From NCBI RefSeq assembly GCF_000801315.1, contig NZ_CP010054.1:3720001-3784000 (forward strand): 64,000 nt of DNA, written 5' to 3'. The translations under genes were made by a program, and so were the position numbers. Within the stretch, counting starts at the first letter, position 1. Each line of letters starts with the position of its first letter. The notes under the pieces are model-generated. The model saw only the letters and a program-made list of their open reading frames with translations. It had not been told where the DNA came from and searched no databases. The stretch comes from Hymenobacter sp. DG25B. Lineage in GTDB: Bacteria; Bacteroidota; Bacteroidia; Cytophagales; Hymenobacteraceae. Positions 16,486 to 36,900 of this stretch are shown here, one piece after another.

Positions 16486-16515
16486 TTTGAGTTCTGAATC
16501 TGGCGCTTACATTTG
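16486..16515 (+). promoter_or_regulatory. Promoter of the metY-metX-hom leader
   Basis: TTTG (16486-16489), an 18-base spacer and TACATTTG (16508-16515) match the Bacteroidota promoter exactly. Transcription would begin near 16520, about 45 bases ahead of the SAM riboswitch and about 540 bases ahead of metY. Confidence 0.8.
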
Positions 16516-16564
16516 CCCTCACCAACCCGGTACTCCCCCGCTCGCGGCGGGGCAGTTTTCATAG

Positions 16565-16678
16565 GATTTATATAGAAGCGGCGAGAGAACAGGCTCCGTG
16601 ACCCGCTGGCAACCTTCGACCGCGCGAAAGGTGCCAATTCCTGCCCAGACCAGCTGTTGCTGGCGGGAGATATAAGTT
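16565..16678 (+). promoter_or_regulatory. SAM-I (S-box) riboswitch
   Basis: All core parts of a SAM-I aptamer are visible. P1 is GATTTATAT / ATATAAGTT with two G-T pairs; P2 is AGCGG / CCGCT enclosing GAGAGAACAGG and the kink-turn region; P3 is ACCTT / AAGGT in the signature GGCAACCTT ... AAAGGTGCCAATTCCTGC; P4 is CCAGC-TGTT-GCTGG within CCTGCC/GGCGGG. It senses S-adenosylmethionine, the downstream product of the metY/metX/hom pathway. No usual terminator with a T run follows it, so the output may be translational or act through the short reading frame that starts eight bases after P1. Confidence 0.93.
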
Positions 16679-16685
16679 GAGTGCC

Positions 16686-16838
16686 ATGGAAAACACCCTC
16701 GCTTTCGCCTGCTCAAATCCGCTTGCCCCGGCCGCCTTGCTGCGTCCCGGCCCCTCAACAGATGTCTGTGTTTCCGCCTTCGTCACTACGCGAATGCGAA
16801 TGCGCTGCTGTTGCAGCGCGTGTTGTTGCTGTTGCTAG
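16686..16838 (+). CDS. Candidate cysteine-rich leader peptide
   Basis: A 50-codon frame begins with ATG eight bases after the SAM riboswitch. Its last 14 residues are MRMRCCCSACCCCC, directly followed by TAG. In-frame ATGs at 16794 and 16800 would give 14- or 12-residue peptides that are almost entirely Arg, Met and Cys. The eight Cys codons mix TGC and TGT. A 7-bp hairpin, GCGCTGC-TGTT-GCAGCGC (16802-16819), is formed by the Cys codons themselves. By analogy with the cysteine-responsive short frames known in mycobacteria, a ribosome slowed by low Cys-tRNA could change folding or coupling downstream. Translation is not proven; the alternative is a chance TGY-rich stretch. Confidence 0.5.
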   Translation: MENTLAFACSNPLAPAALLRPGPSTDVCVSAFVTTRMRMRCCCSACCCCC

Positions 16839-18442
<1,604 letters not shown>

Positions 18443-18649: not shown

Positions 18650-19681
18650 ATGCCCGAAGACTTGGTTTTTACGCTCCCTAAACCGTTGCCGCTGGAAGGT
18701 GGCGGCGTGCTGCCCGGAGCTCAGGTGGCCTACCGCACCTACGGCACCTTGAATGAAGCCCGCGACAACGTCATCTGGGTGTGCCACGCTCTCACGGCCA
18801 ACGCCGAGGTGCTGGCCTGGTGGCCCGGGTTGTTTGGCGAGAACTGCTATTTCGACCCTGCCGACTGGTTTATTGTGTGTGCCAACGTGCTGGGCTCTTG
18901 CTACGGCTCTACTGGCCCGCTCACGGAGAACCCAGAAACCGGCCGGCCCTGGTATCAGGCGTTTCCCCTGCTTACTATCCGGGACTTGGTGGCGGCCCAT
19001 GAGCAGTTGCGGCAGCATTTGGGTTTAACCCGGATTCATACCCTTATTGGCGGCTCGCTGGGCGGTCAGCAGGCACTGGAGTGGGCCGTAGAGCAGCCCG
19101 GCGTGTTTGCGCATCTGGTGGTGCTGGCTACGAATGCCCGGCACTCTCCCTGGGGCATTGCCTTTAACGAGGCTCAACGGCTGGCTATTCTGGCCGATGA
19201 AACCTACCATCAGGCTACACCTTCGGGTGGGCAGCGCGGACTGAAAGCGGCCCGGGCCATGGCCCTGCTCAGCTACCGCAGCTACGAGGCTTACCACCAA
19301 ACCCAGGCCGAGCCGGGCGATGATACGCTGGAATACTTCCGGGCCAGTGCTTATCAGCAGTATCAGGGCGAAAAATTGGTAGCCCGCTTCAATGCCTATA
19401 CCTACGTGGTGCTTTCCAAAGCCATGGACTCGCATCACCTGGGCCGCGGCCGCGGTACTATTGAAACGGCTTTAAGCCGCATTAAAGCCCGCACGCTTAT
19501 CATCGGCATCAGTTCCGATGTACTGTTTCCGCCAACTGAGCAGCGCCTGCTGGCGCGCCATATTCCGGGAGCCATGTACGCTGAGATGGAGTCCCGCTTT
19601 GGCCATGATGGCTTCCTGATTGAAACCGACCAAATCACGCATTTTCTCGAACGTTTTCATGCCCAGACCTTCGCACATTAG
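18650..19681 (+). CDS. metX: Homoserine O-acetyltransferase
   Basis: Transfers acetyl from acetyl-CoA to homoserine. 343 residues with an alpha/beta-hydrolase fold. Nucleophile elbow GGSLGGQQALEW near residue 135; the acid is likely the Asp of ISSDVLFPP and the histidine is in GHDGFLIE near residue 320. NVLGSCYGSTGP near 80 is a MetX-family signature. The family also includes succinyltransferases, which the sequence alone does not exclude; the neighbouring O-acetylhomoserine enzyme favours acetyl. Its 3' end overlaps hom by 23 bases, so the two are probably translationally coupled. Confidence 0.95.
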   Translation: MPEDLVFTLPKPLPLEGGGVLPGAQVAYRTYGTLNEARDNVIWVCHALTANAEVLAWWPGLFGENCYFDPADWFIVCANVLGSCYGSTGPLTENPETGRPWYQAFPLLTIRDLVAAHEQLRQHLGLTRIHTLIGGSLGGQQALEWAVEQPGVFAHLVVLATNARHSPWGIAFNEAQRLAILADETYHQATPSGGQRGLKAARAMALLSYRSYEAYHQTQAEPGDDTLEYFRASAYQQYQGEKLVARFNAYTYVVLSKAMDSHHLGRGRGTIETALSRIKARTLIIGISSDVLFPPTEQRLLARHIPGAMYAEMESRFGHDGFLIETDQITHFLERFHAQTFAH

Positions 19682-20930
19682 CCTGCCGCGCCCCGTTCCT
19701 TCTCCCCTGCGTATTGGCCTGATAGGCTTTGGCTGCGTAGGCCAGGGCCTGTATGATATTCTGCAGCAGCTGCCGGAATTTGGGGCCGAGGTGCGGCGTA
19801 TTGCGGTAAAGAACCCCGCCAAACCCCGCTCCCTGCCCGCTCATCGTTTTGAATACCATGCCGAGGACCTACTGGCTGACCCGTATCTGGACGTGCTGGT
19901 TGAAGTAATTGATGATGCTGCCGAAGCCTTCCGCCTGGTGAAGGCGGCCCTGCTGCAGGGCCGTCGGGTAATAACGGCTAATAAAGCCATGCTGGCCCGC
20001 CATCTGCCGGAATTGGTGCAGCTTCAGCAGCAGTTTGGCGGCACGCTTTTGTACGAAGCCGCCGTGTGTGGCAGTATCCCCATTCTGCGCACCCTGGATG
20101 CTCACTTCAGCAGTGAACCACTGCGCTCAGTTAGTGGCATTCTGAATGGCTCCTCCAACTATGTGCTCACGCGCATGACGCAGGAAGGAACCGATTACGC
20201 CGCCGCCCTGGCCGAAGCGCAACTCCTGGGTTTCGCTGAAACCGACCCTACCCTGGATATGGCCGCTTTCGACCCGCGTTCCAAAGCCGTTATTCTGGCC
20301 GCTCATGCCTACGGCCTCCTCCTCCAGCCGGAACAGGTACTGCACTTGGGCATTGAAGCCATAACGCCCACGGATATTGCTTATGCGCAGGCCCAAGGCT
20401 ATAAAATAAAGGTAGTAGCCACGCTGGAGCAGCTGCCCGACGGCCGCGTAACGGCGTTGGTGGCGCCCACCTTTGTGTCGGCCGAATCCCCCTTGTACAC
20501 CGTTGAGCATGAGTTTAATGGGGTATCTGTAGAAGCGGCATTTGCCGGTGCGCAGTTCCTGCGCGGGCGCGGAGCCGGCGGACACCCCACGGGTTCGGCC
20601 GTTTTATCCGATCTGGCCGCTTTGCAACGCCAACAGACTTACACTTATACCAAGCTCCGGCAGGCAGCACCGGCCTTCACCAATCAACTGGCGGTAGAAA
20701 TCTATTTGCGCACGCCGGAGGAAAATGGGCTGGCCGACTTGGCGCTAACGGATATTTCAGTGGAAGGCAACGGGCCGGAGGGATATTTCGCCGTAGGCTA
20801 CACCACCTTGGCTACCTTACTGGAGCAACGGGAAAACCTACGGCAAGCCGGCGCCCTGATAGTGCGTACTGGCGCTATGCGCGTAACGGAGGCAGCGCAG
20901 GAGGTTACTGAATCGGCGCTGGCGCAATAA
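19659..20930 (+). CDS. hom: Homoserine dehydrogenase
   Basis: Reduces aspartate semialdehyde to homoserine. 423 residues from the ATG at 19659 inside the end of metX. NAD(P)-binding loop GLIGFGCVGQGL near residue 20; substrate region GILNGSSNYVLTRM near 155; catalytic lysine in FDPRSKAVILAAHAYG near 200. The last 80 residues do not show a clear ACT signature. It is a stand-alone enzyme, not the aspartokinase fusion (ThrA/MetL) common in other bacteria, so the methionine cluster carries its own homoserine supply under the SAM-sensing leader. Confidence 0.94.
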   Translation: MPRPSHISLPRPVPSPLRIGLIGFGCVGQGLYDILQQLPEFGAEVRRIAVKNPAKPRSLPAHRFEYHAEDLLADPYLDVLVEVIDDAAEAFRLVKAALLQGRRVITANKAMLARHLPELVQLQQQFGGTLLYEAAVCGSIPILRTLDAHFSSEPLRSVSGILNGSSNYVLTRMTQEGTDYAAALAEAQLLGFAETDPTLDMAAFDPRSKAVILAAHAYGLLLQPEQVLHLGIEAITPTDIAYAQAQGYKIKVVATLEQLPDGRVTALVAPTFVSAESPLYTVEHEFNGVSVEAAFAGAQFLRGRGAGGHPTGSAVLSDLAALQRQQTYTYTKLRQAAPAFTNQLAVEIYLRTPEENGLADLALTDISVEGNGPEGYFAVGYTTLATLLEQRENLRQAGALIVRTGAMRVTEAAQEVTESALAQ

Positions 20931-33921: not shown

Positions 33922-36900
33922 ATGGCGGAAGCAGCAACCAAGAGGCTGAATCAGGCAGCCAAAGACCTGAACGTTGGATTGTCCACGATTGTGGATTTTC
34001 TGGCGGAAAAAGGGATTCAGATCGACAATAAACCGACGACTAAGCTGACGGCGGAGCAGGTATCCCTGCTCAACAAAGCGTTTGAGTCGTCGGCGCAGGA
34101 TAAGATCGAGGCAGCCAAACTCAGCCAGGCCAAGCGCCAGAGTGAGTTGGAGGCACACCCGCGTCCGGAGCCTACCGCTCCGAAAGCAGAGGTGGCCGCT
34201 CCTGCCCCGGCTCCCAAGCCAGCCGAGGAGCCCAAGCCAGCAGCTCCGGCTGCTCCCGCTCCGGCACCTGTTGCTGCTAATCCCGCCGCTGCTCCCGCCC
34301 CCGCCATTACGGAAGAAGCGCCTAAAGTACCCGGCCTGAAGGTGATGGGGAAAATTGAGCTGGATGCCAAAGGTCGTCCGGTACCACCCCGGCCTGCTCC
34401 GGCAGCCGCGGCGCCAGCCCCGGCACCTGCGCCCGCTCCCAAAGCGGAGGAAAAGCCTGCGCCCGCTCCGGCCCCGGCACCTAAAGCAGAGCCCGCCCCG
34501 GCCCCCGTGGCCGCAGCGCCGGTAACGCCGCCTGTTCCTAAAGGAGAACCAGCCCCTGCTCCCGTAGCGCCGGCCCCCACGCCTGCTCCTGCTCCGGCAG
34601 CACAGGCCCCAGCATCACCCGCTGCTGCGGCCCCGGAAGTTCCGGCCGCCGCCGCCCCGGCATCTGAAGCAGGCACTCCTTCCACAGAAGAACCCGCCGG
34701 TACCATCGTTGCCAAAGCCGACCAGCTGAAAGGCCTGACGGTTCTGGGTAAGATTGAGCTGCCCACGGATTCCTCGCGCCGGGGAGGCCGCGGTGCCCGC
34801 CCGGTTGCTTCTTCTGATGTTCGGAAAAGCGGTCTGGCGCCCGATAACAAGAAAAAGCGTCAGCGTATTCCCACGCCCGGTACCGGTCAGGGTGGTCCGG
34901 GTGGTGCCCAGCAAGGCAACCGCCCCGGTCCCGGCCAGAACAACCGTCCGGATCAGAACAGCCGCCCGGTGCAGCGTTCCATGCATGCAGGTCAGCGGCC
35001 CGGCCAGGGCGGTGCCCAGCGCCCAGTAACGCCCGCTACGCCTGAGCAGAACGACAAGCAGATTCAGGAGCAGATCAAAGCCACGCTGGCTAAGCTCAGC
35101 GGCGGCCGTGGTGGCAACCAGACCAACCGCGCCAAGTACCGCCGCGACAAGCGGGCCGGTGCTGCCGAAGATCGGGAAGCCGTACGCCAGCAAAACGAGC
35201 TGGATGCCAAGATCCTGAAGGTAACCGAGTTTATCTCGGCCAACGACCTGGCGTCGTTCATGAACGTTTCTGTGAACGAGGTTATCAAGGTTTGCCTCAC
35301 GATGGGCATGTTTGTATCCATCAACCAGCGCCTCGATGCGGAAGCCATTACCGTTATTGCCGATGAGTTCGGTTATGACGTGGAGTTCCTGTCGGCGGAG
35401 GAAGAGGAAACGGACCTCGGCATCGAAGACAACGAAGAAGACCTGCAGCCCCGCGCGCCTATCGTGACCATCATGGGTCACGTTGACCACGGTAAAACCT
35501 CGCTGCTTGACTATATCCGGAATGCCAGCGTGGCCAAAGGCGAAGCCGGCGGTATTACGCAGCACATTGGTGCCTACGATGTAATGACCCAGTCGGGTAA
35601 GCGCGTTACTTTCCTGGATACTCCTGGTCACGAAGCGTTTACCGCCATGCGTGCCCGTGGTGCCAAGATTACGGACATTGCCATTATTGTGGTAGCCGCC
35701 GACGACTCGGTGATGCCGCAGACGAAGGAAGCCATCAACCACGCACAAGCGGCTGGGGTACCTATCGTAATTGCGCTGAACAAGATTGACAAGCCTGGTG
35801 CTAACCCCGATAAGGTCCGTGAGGAGCTGTCGGCCATCAACATTCTGGTAGAAGAATGGGGTGGTAAGTACCAGTCGCAGGAAGTATCGGCTAAAACTGG
35901 CCTGGGTATTGACGACCTGCTGGAAAAAGTATTGCTGGAAGCCGAGATTCTCGAGCTGAAAGCCAACCCGGACCGCAACGCTGTGGGTGCCGTTATTGAA
36001 GCCTCGCTGGACAAAGGCCGGGGCTACGTAACTACCATTCTGGTGCAAACCGGTACCATGAACGTGGGCGATATTGTGCTGGCTGGTCCGCACTACGGCC
36101 GCGTGAAGGCCATGACCGACCACCGCGGTAAGAAGATGAAGTCGGCTGGTCCTGCTACTCCGGTACAGGTGCTTGGTCTGACCGGCGCGCCACAGGCCGG
36201 CGACAAGATTCAGGTGATGGAGACCGAGCGCGAAGCCCGGGAGCTGGCTACGCAGCGGCAGCAGCTCTCGCGTGAGCAGAGCCTGCGCACCAAGAAGCAC
36301 ATTACCTTGGATGAAATTGGTCGTCGTCTGGCAATCGGTTCGTTCAAAGAGCTGAACGTTATTGTAAAAGGTGACGTGGACGGCTCAGTGGAAGCACTGG
36401 CCGACTCTCTGTTGAAGCTGAGCACGCCGGAAGTAGCCGTAAACATCCTCAACAAAGGGGTGGGTGCCATTTCGGAAGGCGACGTTCTGCTGGCCTCGGC
36501 CTCGGATGCCATCATCATTGGTTTCCAGGTGCGGCCCTCGCAGAGTGCCCGCAAGCTGGCGGAGCAGGAGCAGATCGATATTCGTCTGTACTCCATCATC
36601 TACAATGCCATCAACGAGGTAAAGGATGCCATGGAAGGCATGCTGGCTCCAACGGTGAAGGAAGTAGTGGTGGCCAACGCCGAAGTTCGTCAGGTGTTCA
36701 ATATTACCAAGGTGGGCACCATTGCCGGCTGTATGGTAACGGACGGCAGCTTCACCCGCAAAACCAAAGTACGCGTGGTACGCAACGGTATTGTGGTGTA
36801 CGCCGGCGAAGTGCAGGACCTCAAGCGTTACAAAGACGATGTGTCGGAAGTACGCCAGGGTTACGAATGCGGTATTTCGGTTAAGGGCTTCAATGACCTG

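Follow-up and report, generated by a model that had tools for sequence, protein, structure and literature searches.

A cysteine-codon leader ORF in series with a SAM-I riboswitch upstream of metY in Hymenobacter and other Bacteroidota: a putative two-input leader

Riboswitches and leader-peptide attenuators are usually treated as alternatives. In the tna operon of E. coli, which has no aptamer, a ribosome stalled at the end of the TnaC leader peptide keeps Rho off the adjacent RNA, the arrest requiring the nascent peptide together with free tryptophan. The poly-cysteine leaders of mycobacteria are reportedly leaderless, according to the title of a 2020 paper by Canestrari. Bacteroidota, for their part, rarely rely on Shine-Dalgarno sites. 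For Actinobacteria, poly-Cys leader peptides in the neighbourhood of cys genes were predicted (Seliverstov, 2005; PMC1262725), with Rho-dependent control on the model of tna suggested for them in what the passage concerned calls a weak prediction (PMC1262725), and such leaders were later reported in mycobacteria (cited in PMC13236596). For the uORFC-8-2 motif, found upstream of cysS in Rhodobacterales, ribosome-mediated attenuation involving tandem Cys codons in an upstream ORF has been proposed (PMC8632094). The SAM-I riboswitch of Xanthomonas campestris is described as having a second input that reports amino-acid supply through tRNA (PMC7270179); the terms 'uORF' and 'leader peptide' do not occur in the main text of that paper. 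Among the Bacteroidota, leader-peptide attenuation has been inferred for amino-acid operons of Flavobacterium (PMC9723704), and B. thetaiotaomicron is noted to have short ORFs that resemble leaders (PMC7366714).

The locus described here lies upstream of metY in Hymenobacter sp. DG25B, within a window of 64,000 nt (the whole stretch of DNA that was analysed), and its parts are collected in Table 1. The aptamer scores above the gathering score of the SAM-I covariance model and is the sole Rfam match in the window at gathering thresholds, no second aptamer or T-box being found in the leader. Seven bases separate its end from the ATG of a short ORF that translates to MENTLAFACSNPLAPAALLRPGPSTDVCVSAFVTTRMRMRCCCSACCCCC, with the tail RMRMR-CCCSACCCCC-TAG. 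An initial annotation had placed a short frame with eight Cys among its last ten codons, TGC and TGT both used, between the SAM-I aptamer and metY, with its ATG just past the closing helix of the riboswitch and an operon metY-metX-hom behind it; frame, start and Cys codons are as it read them, and the operon is confirmed by family matches of all three products. The family name of TIGR01326, O-acetylhomoserine aminocarboxypropyltransferase/cysteine synthase, makes a cysteine link of the MetY enzyme itself plausible. The locus thus has the short ORF with a run of related-amino-acid codons 5' of a biosynthetic operon by which attenuators are recognized, and no intrinsic terminator of the classical trp/his type was found between leader ORF and gene in the window's copy. 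Between the likely promoter and the aptamer, at 16532-16559, a hairpin ACTCC..GGNAGT followed by TTTT can be made out by eye; at the same place in L005, L006, L007, L026 and L027 the stem letters differ between Hymenobacter species and the pairing, again by eye, seems kept.

Table 1. Parts of the metY leader and operon (positions within the window)
Feature	Position	Strand	Remarks
Candidate promoter box TACATTTG	16508..16515	+	Read from the sequence; fits TAnnTTTG, the Bacteroidota promoter box consensus (PMC9723704)
SAM-I riboswitch aptamer RF00162	16565..16678	+	66.6 bits; gathering score 44.4
P1 5' strand GATTTATAT	16565..16573	+	A/U-rich P1 type with TTTATA
P1 3' strand ATATAAGTT	16670..16678	+	Directly 5' of the short ORF's ATG
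Short ORF / leader peptide	16686..16838	+	50 codons + TAG (16836-16838)
Two Met codons ATG CGA ATG	16794..16802	+	Just 5' of the Cys run (sequence)
Cys run CCCSACCCCC	16806..16835	+	TGC and TGT mixed; 8 Cys in last 10 codons
C/U-rich, G-poor stretch 3' of the stop	16853..16886	+	Proposed piece of a Rho-loading region
metY, O-acetylhomoserine/O-acetylserine sulfhydrylase	17060..18442	+	TIGR01326, 674 bits
metX, homoserine O-acetyltransferase	18650..19681	+	NF001209, 335.9 bits vs cut-off 331
hom, homoserine dehydrogenase	19620..20930	+	NF004976, 319 bits vs cut-off 205; listed from TTG, true start uncertain

What is new in this arrangement is the combination; both kinds of device are known. With the actinobacterial and mycobacterial poly-Cys leaders it shares a short ORF, a Cys run near the stop, a place 5' of sulfur genes and the lack of a conserved terminator (PMC1262725); those leaders are described, in the passages concerned, with no mention of a riboswitch, whereas the present ORF, which belongs to Bacteroidota, follows a SAM-I aptamer and has Met codons in addition. 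Membership in the leaderless mycobacterial type is doubtful; the short ORF starts behind a 114-nt aptamer, which must share its RNA to act, and this speaks against a leaderless start, though an internal transcription start is possible. The X. campestris riboswitch differs in that its expression platform is itself bound by uncharged tRNA-fMet, which exposes the Shine-Dalgarno site (PMC7270179). The uORFC-8-2 motif has two Cys codons, an intrinsic terminator and another gene and phylum, and the passages describing it make no mention of a riboswitch (PMC8632094). No description of a Cys leader together with a SAM riboswitch was found among the matches listed by a word-match search of the open-licence literature, a body of text outside which most subscription journals and bioRxiv lie.

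The Cys run is a rare sequence. Its 30-base pattern occurs once in the window and in none of 100 shuffles, and four TGY codons followed by TAR occur twice on both strands of the 4.36-Mb genome (4 contigs), as against zero for a reversed control pattern. Both sites end short ORFs linked to SAM-I aptamers, one being the metY leader of the window and the other lying at C1:1976623-1976637 (L003). With three TGY codons before TAR the counts are 12 for the pattern and 2 for the reversed control; one three-Cys-then-stop match, TGTTGCTGCTAA, lies at window positions 34269-34280. The genome contains four SAM-I matches, and three are followed by a short ORF with a Cys run: besides metY these are L003, before an amino-acid permease, and L002, before a phosphoadenylyl-sulfate (PAPS) reductase, where the ORF ends ...HGCCAMMGMPCCC; both of these ORFs begin with GTG. 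At the fourth match, before metH, a Cys-ending short frame is absent.

Relatives retain the arrangement. Among 80 named metY loci from Hymenobacter, Mucilaginibacter, Pedobacter, Cytophagales and others, a script that sought the aptamer by text pattern detected its signature and a nearby start in 72; in 70 of these the start follows the P1 signature by 9-13 nt, and at least three of the last eight codons encode Cys in 68. Loci L027, L055, L074 and L079 fall under this threshold, yet their tails contain Met and Cys (e.g., MQPFICMCCGIYKH). The script missed the start of L037, which is therefore outside the 72; cmscan places an aptamer there, and its frame ends GCCCCCW (by eye). Five of the seven named metY loci without a detected aptamer (L060, L070, L075, L076, L081) have neither aptamer nor Cys frame. 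Across relatives the bodies of the ORFs vary and the tails are kept: in Hymenobacter, nearest-neighbour change per site is about 0.08-0.12 in the last 24 bases and 0.46-0.52 after the stop, in a gapless comparison that indels inflate. Codon-position rates in the tails are weakly biased towards the third position, and tests based on codon position and synonymous change do not settle the matter, since Cys has only two codons and no gaps were allowed in the comparison. The distance from stop to gene is mostly about 90-240 nt and exceeds 300 nt in 12 of the 72 named loci. In 11 Hymenobacter loci (L025, L031-L033, L039, L045-L048, L050, L068) the leader ORF ends 913-978 nt 5' of metY, a gap in which another gene probably lies; in L209 the intervening place holds a frame of 145 aa starting MSNLLKFSIQSKSTSAAR, which we take to be an OsmC-like protein. 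By the initial annotation's own standard, relatives that keep the riboswitch and lose the Cys frame would count against it. The named metY loci pass this test, with a variable body and a kept tail; in the wider set described next the frame is common without being universal, 24 of 53 metY-like SAM-I loci having none.

For that wider set, 59 genomes from the order and 64 from the class were scanned for RF00162, and 180 SAM-I loci were read (113 + 67): all 119 order matches, 52 of 53 further class matches (the one left out is below the cut-off) and nine picked from a phylum list to spread families, two of them outside the class; L281 was dropped as a repeat of L140. A frame that starts close to the aptamer's end and finishes in Cys codons is present at 42 of the first 113 order loci, compared with 0.40 in dinucleotide shuffles. 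Such leaders precede 29 of 53 metY-like genes (a class assigned by best tblastn match, which includes cystathionine-synthase-like relatives without Cys runs), 4 of 7 cysH genes, 9 of 36 "other" genes (the unclassified ones) and 4 of 4 permease genes, the last all in Hymenobacter. The nine in the "other" class stand before one nitrite/sulfite reductase, two cysteine desulfurases, one NhaC/DcuC-type transporter, one TonB receptor and, at four loci, RimK-like ATP-grasp proteins (two by family search, two by eye). None of the 180 SAM-I loci has a Cys leader before metH (0/68), metX (0/11) or hom (0/1), where a few metH labels rest on matches more than 500 nt away, seven formerly unclassified loci were re-labelled metH by sequence motif, and more metH-like loci without Cys runs remain in "other". 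This gene context, sulfur uptake and assimilation but not metH and metX, fits a sensor of Cys supply.

By source, Cys leaders were found at 43 of 119 order loci, 3 of 52 class loci (all metY-like, 3/8) and none of the nine picked loci; there are thus few outside the order in this sample, yet many in the named Mucilaginibacter and Pedobacter loci and in the family of the L054 genome (see below). Cys leaders are associated with an A/U-rich P1 (TTTATA), being present at 41 of 75 loci with such a P1 and at 5 of 105 without it (Fisher p 1.4e-14, an optimistic value because the loci are related). At 40 of 46 Cys loci an in-frame ATG or GTG lies 7-14 nt past the aptamer's end. Since 14 of 39 metY-like loci with an A/U-rich P1 lack a Cys run, the module is dispensable. 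By eye, three of these 14 (L155, L176, L190) retain a short frame in that position, and it contains a C-M pair (MLYYQQCMPPAKWPCRA, MLYLQQCMSSGAY, MPIHPDRRCMPPRAAN). A phylum-wide search gave no Cys-run end among the frames listed (at most four per locus, L098 excluded) at 30 loci (L085-L114), an unfair sample made up of the best-scoring aptamers, mostly of one family. Many of these loci, which belong to another Bacteroidota family, carry GATGATGTATGCAT or a close form just 3' of the aptamer without a Cys run, and SAM-I leaders with GATGATGTATGCAT probably have a different expression platform. The SAM-I leaders of L107 and L108 run into a metY-like start.

Methionine codons accompany the Cys run. 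In a leader set for tail and composition counts that fell from 110 to 108 when two duplicates were dropped, Met makes up 88 of 479 non-Cys residues in the last 16 codons (start codons excluded) in Hymenobacter, 29 of 201 in the other named loci and 36 of 413 in the order set; in the rest of the peptides the figures are 18/1694, 1/443 and 6/856. The Hymenobacter counts reflect shared ancestry; the enrichment recurs in the other two sets. Among 40 order-set tails, 22 contain Met and 18 do not. The enrichment may be read as sensing of both sulfur amino acids.

Leaders of this kind also occur without an aptamer. Neither L054 nor L080 has a SAM-I match near metY or elsewhere in its genome (of unstated completeness), and a Cys/Met leader lies 5' of metY in both (MKINYAKLNPGTFGNAVCCMCCCASPAQ... 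and ...VDCMCCCCAF...), followed by what appears by eye to be a strong GC hairpin and a U-run; the L054 fold has a z of -4.25. These leaders resemble the uORFC-8-2 motif (PMC8632094). The ATG of the L054 leader stands, by eye, a few bases past a TATCTTTG box, so its mRNA may be close to leaderless, as in mycobacteria. A survey of the family of the L054 genome, which for aptamer-less leaders covered metY loci, comprised 61 genomes, 25 of them with a match; 20 metY loci were scanned by cmscan, a set that leaves L303, L310, L316, L317 and L318 outside. SAM-I was found at 14 of the 20, and at 13 of those 14 (all but L295) at least four Cys fall within eight residues, in stop-to-stop frames whose starts were unchecked. 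Among the six metY loci without SAM-I at the locus, L294 (= L054), L313 and L314 have a Cys/Met frame (e.g., NMCMCCCCMCMMSG* in L313), and L307, L308 and L311 have none. Cys/Met leaders without an aptamer mark the leader as a module also occurring alone, and they fit a sensor of Cys supply. Judged by their architecture, the terminator-bearing stand-alone leaders would be classical attenuators in which starvation leads to expression.

That a composite leader sensing cysteine exists here is, in our judgement, very probable. It is probable that the SAM-I aptamer and the Cys(/Met) ORF in series form a two-input leader in which ribosome occupancy would block termination; that SAM acts through initiation of the short ORF seems slightly better than an even proposition, and Rho is put forward as the readout only tentatively. 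When SAM is low, a loosened P1 would leave free its A/U-rich 3' strand, on which ribosomes load for the ORF, and the ORF would be translated. If charged Cys-tRNA, and probably Met-tRNA, is short, ribosomes would dwell or queue at the ORF's end and shield from Rho the C-rich, G-poor stretch, within the ORF and immediately beyond it, on which it would load; the leader would then escape termination and the sulfur-assimilation genes would be expressed. High SAM (no translation) or plentiful Cys (fast clearance) would lead to termination. What the sequences establish is the anatomy, how it is conserved and the gene context, with chance-level terminators and an open gene start as predictions; we infer translation of the ORF, SAM gating through P1, the polarity of the response and the Rho readout. 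Since the 3' strand of P1 lies directly 5' of the ATG at near-constant spacing, a SAM-stabilised P1 would be expected to block ribosome loading. The proposed readout is like that of tna, where the ribosome stalled at the leader's end keeps Rho off; it differs in that tna arrest depends on peptide and tryptophan and involves no aptamer. The leader is not of the classical terminator type of attenuator, yet it would work like a leader-peptide attenuator.

Rho-dependent termination fits best because intrinsic terminators between ORF and gene are about as frequent as expected by chance and gene starts seem accessible. In three sets of loci such terminators number 9/48 against 7.6 in shuffles, 0/20 against 0.3 and 4/39 against 3.6, and an intrinsic terminator was accordingly rejected as the readout of the combined class. 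The gene start is predicted to be more open than the rest of the leader at 32 of 37, 18 of 20 and 32 of 37 loci. After the aptamer, the excess of C over G is 0.135 in 42 Cys loci and 0.029 in 35 metH/metX/hom leaders, a contrast for which the Mann-Whitney p overstates the support because the loci are related and differ in GC. From +23 to +43 after the stop, the mean composition in Hymenobacter is C 0.43, T 0.38, G 0.13 and A 0.06, and this pyrimidine stretch is predicted to be more unpaired than its neighbours in the mean; a clear tract of this kind is a Hymenobacter feature, weak in the other sets. Rho-loading sites are described as having C over G, being rich in YC and being little structured (PMC12121999), and these traits, with the C excess behind the aptamer and the unpaired pyrimidine stretch of Hymenobacter, make Rho the first choice of readout. 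Composition and openness fit the C-rich, G-poor, little-structured profile of a Rho attenuator in part.

The alternative that survives best, though we consider it rather unlikely, is a pair of independent devices, with the SAM-I aptamer using its own expression platform, the Cys leader working by RNA-structure attenuation (1:2 vs 2:3), and SAM not controlling translation of the ORF. The stand-alone Cys/Met leaders with terminators speak for it, as does folding stronger than shuffled after the stop in the non-Hymenobacter named set (+3..+75, z -1.72, n 20). The remaining set gives z -1.19 over the same stretch and Hymenobacter z -1.50 at -3..+25, no other window near or after the stop being stronger than shuffled; Hymenobacter +20..+60 is slightly less structured than shuffles (z +0.31). 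Such folding around or beyond the stop could point to RNA-structure attenuation in place of Rho. In ten Sphingobacteriaceae-like leaders (by eye, A1) an ACACGU lies between AUGUGU, which spells Met-Cys codons, and a downstream ACGUGU and can pair with either, again in favour of independent devices, covariation of these alternative pairings not being demonstrated. The Cys run also pairs with downstream RNA slightly better than shuffled in two sets (z -0.64 and -0.58, vs +0.20 and -0.21 for body controls), but the effect in Hymenobacter is small (z -0.24 vs -0.17) and covariation is lacking; as a general switch this long-range pairing is weak. Against independent devices stand the chance-level intrinsic terminators of the combined class and the near-constant spacing of ATG and P1, which suggests that P1 and initiation of the ORF are coupled.

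Three structural candidates were set aside. The initial annotation had pointed to a hairpin formed by the Cys codons at 16802-16819 (GCGCTGC-TGTT-GCAGCGC); it is present, by eye, but drops out as part of a general pattern. A 7-bp hairpin (G-U allowed) occurs in the last 45 ORF bases of 12 of 48 Hymenobacter leaders and the window's kind in five of the 48 (L005, L007, L009, L011, L013), and it was rejected as a working part since it looks incidental. A hairpin at the Hymenobacter stop codon has a fold z of -1.5, but shuffles reach its observed covariation score 416 times in 500 (alignment A2, 23 hand-chosen sequences, 21 distinct). Just 5' of the aptamer, a hairpin is predicted at the 20 non-Hymenobacter named loci (pairing 0.62 vs 0.44 shuffled; above 0.5 at 15 of 20) and not in Hymenobacter (0.12 vs 0.22, n 47) or the order/class Cys set (0.35 vs 0.32, n 46). 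In L063, L056, L066, L077, L078 and L083 it often takes in the first P1 bases, so it could compete with P1; being confined to the non-Hymenobacter named loci, it was rejected as a general part.

Less probable still is translational attenuation in the style of the mycobacterial poly-Cys leaders, in which a ribosome stalled on the Cys codons would be needed to free the metY start from sequestration. Translational attenuation is what has been reported for the nearest poly-Cys leaders with an experimental description (PMC13236596), but the predicted openness of the gene starts in all three sets and the usual stop-to-gene distances, including those above 300 nt, weigh against this reading. It is quite improbable that the Cys-rich nascent peptide is itself the sensor, through binding of metal, redox state or sulfide or through nascent-chain arrest, in place of tRNA supply. 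Cys-rich tails could bind metals, and some tails are alike within groups (RMRMCCC in Hymenobacter, CMC in Mucilaginibacter and kin); however, the spacing, number and neighbours of the Cys residues vary freely (CCCCCCCCC, CCMCICCPCC, CMCMCCCCC, CCWCPCCC), the genes are mostly sulfur genes, and Met joins Cys. Finally, that the TGY run is a by-product of an RNA element or repeated DNA with no peptide made can hardly be right: the window's run can form its 7-bp hairpin, and the weak third-position bias of the tail means that codon statistics alone do not decide, but few relatives retain that hairpin, TGT and TGC both occur (171/139, 85/36 and 156/78 in three sets), sequences that otherwise differ greatly agree in having the run in frame with a start in the same position and in ending it no more than a few codons from the stop, and shuffles yield 0.40 where 42 are observed.

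The two-input leader of the initial annotation thus stands in altered form. Its sensing of Cys supply is supported by conservation, gene context and the aptamer-less leaders; Met codons have been added to it and the Cys hairpin dropped, and the step governed may be Rho-dependent termination, another termination or translation. Both types of device appear in series, in near-fixed geometry, before genes for sulfur uptake and assimilation and not before metH, which offers a natural two-input gate open to testing, gives the long leaders that follow these SAM-I riboswitches a use, and allows short ORFs of a class absent from the literature searched to be annotated. Natural variants with aptamer only, leader only or both may help to trace how ribosome occupancy leads to gene output. 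In its fullest form the proposal is a nested RNA gate, which we advance with some reserve: the aptamer would decide whether the ORF is translated, charging of Cys- and Met-tRNA would set how long ribosomes dwell, and occupancy, read out by Rho, would integrate SAM, Cys and Met. If this is true, many Bacteroidota would share a common control of their sulfur-assimilation regulon, with metH keeping a plain riboswitch.
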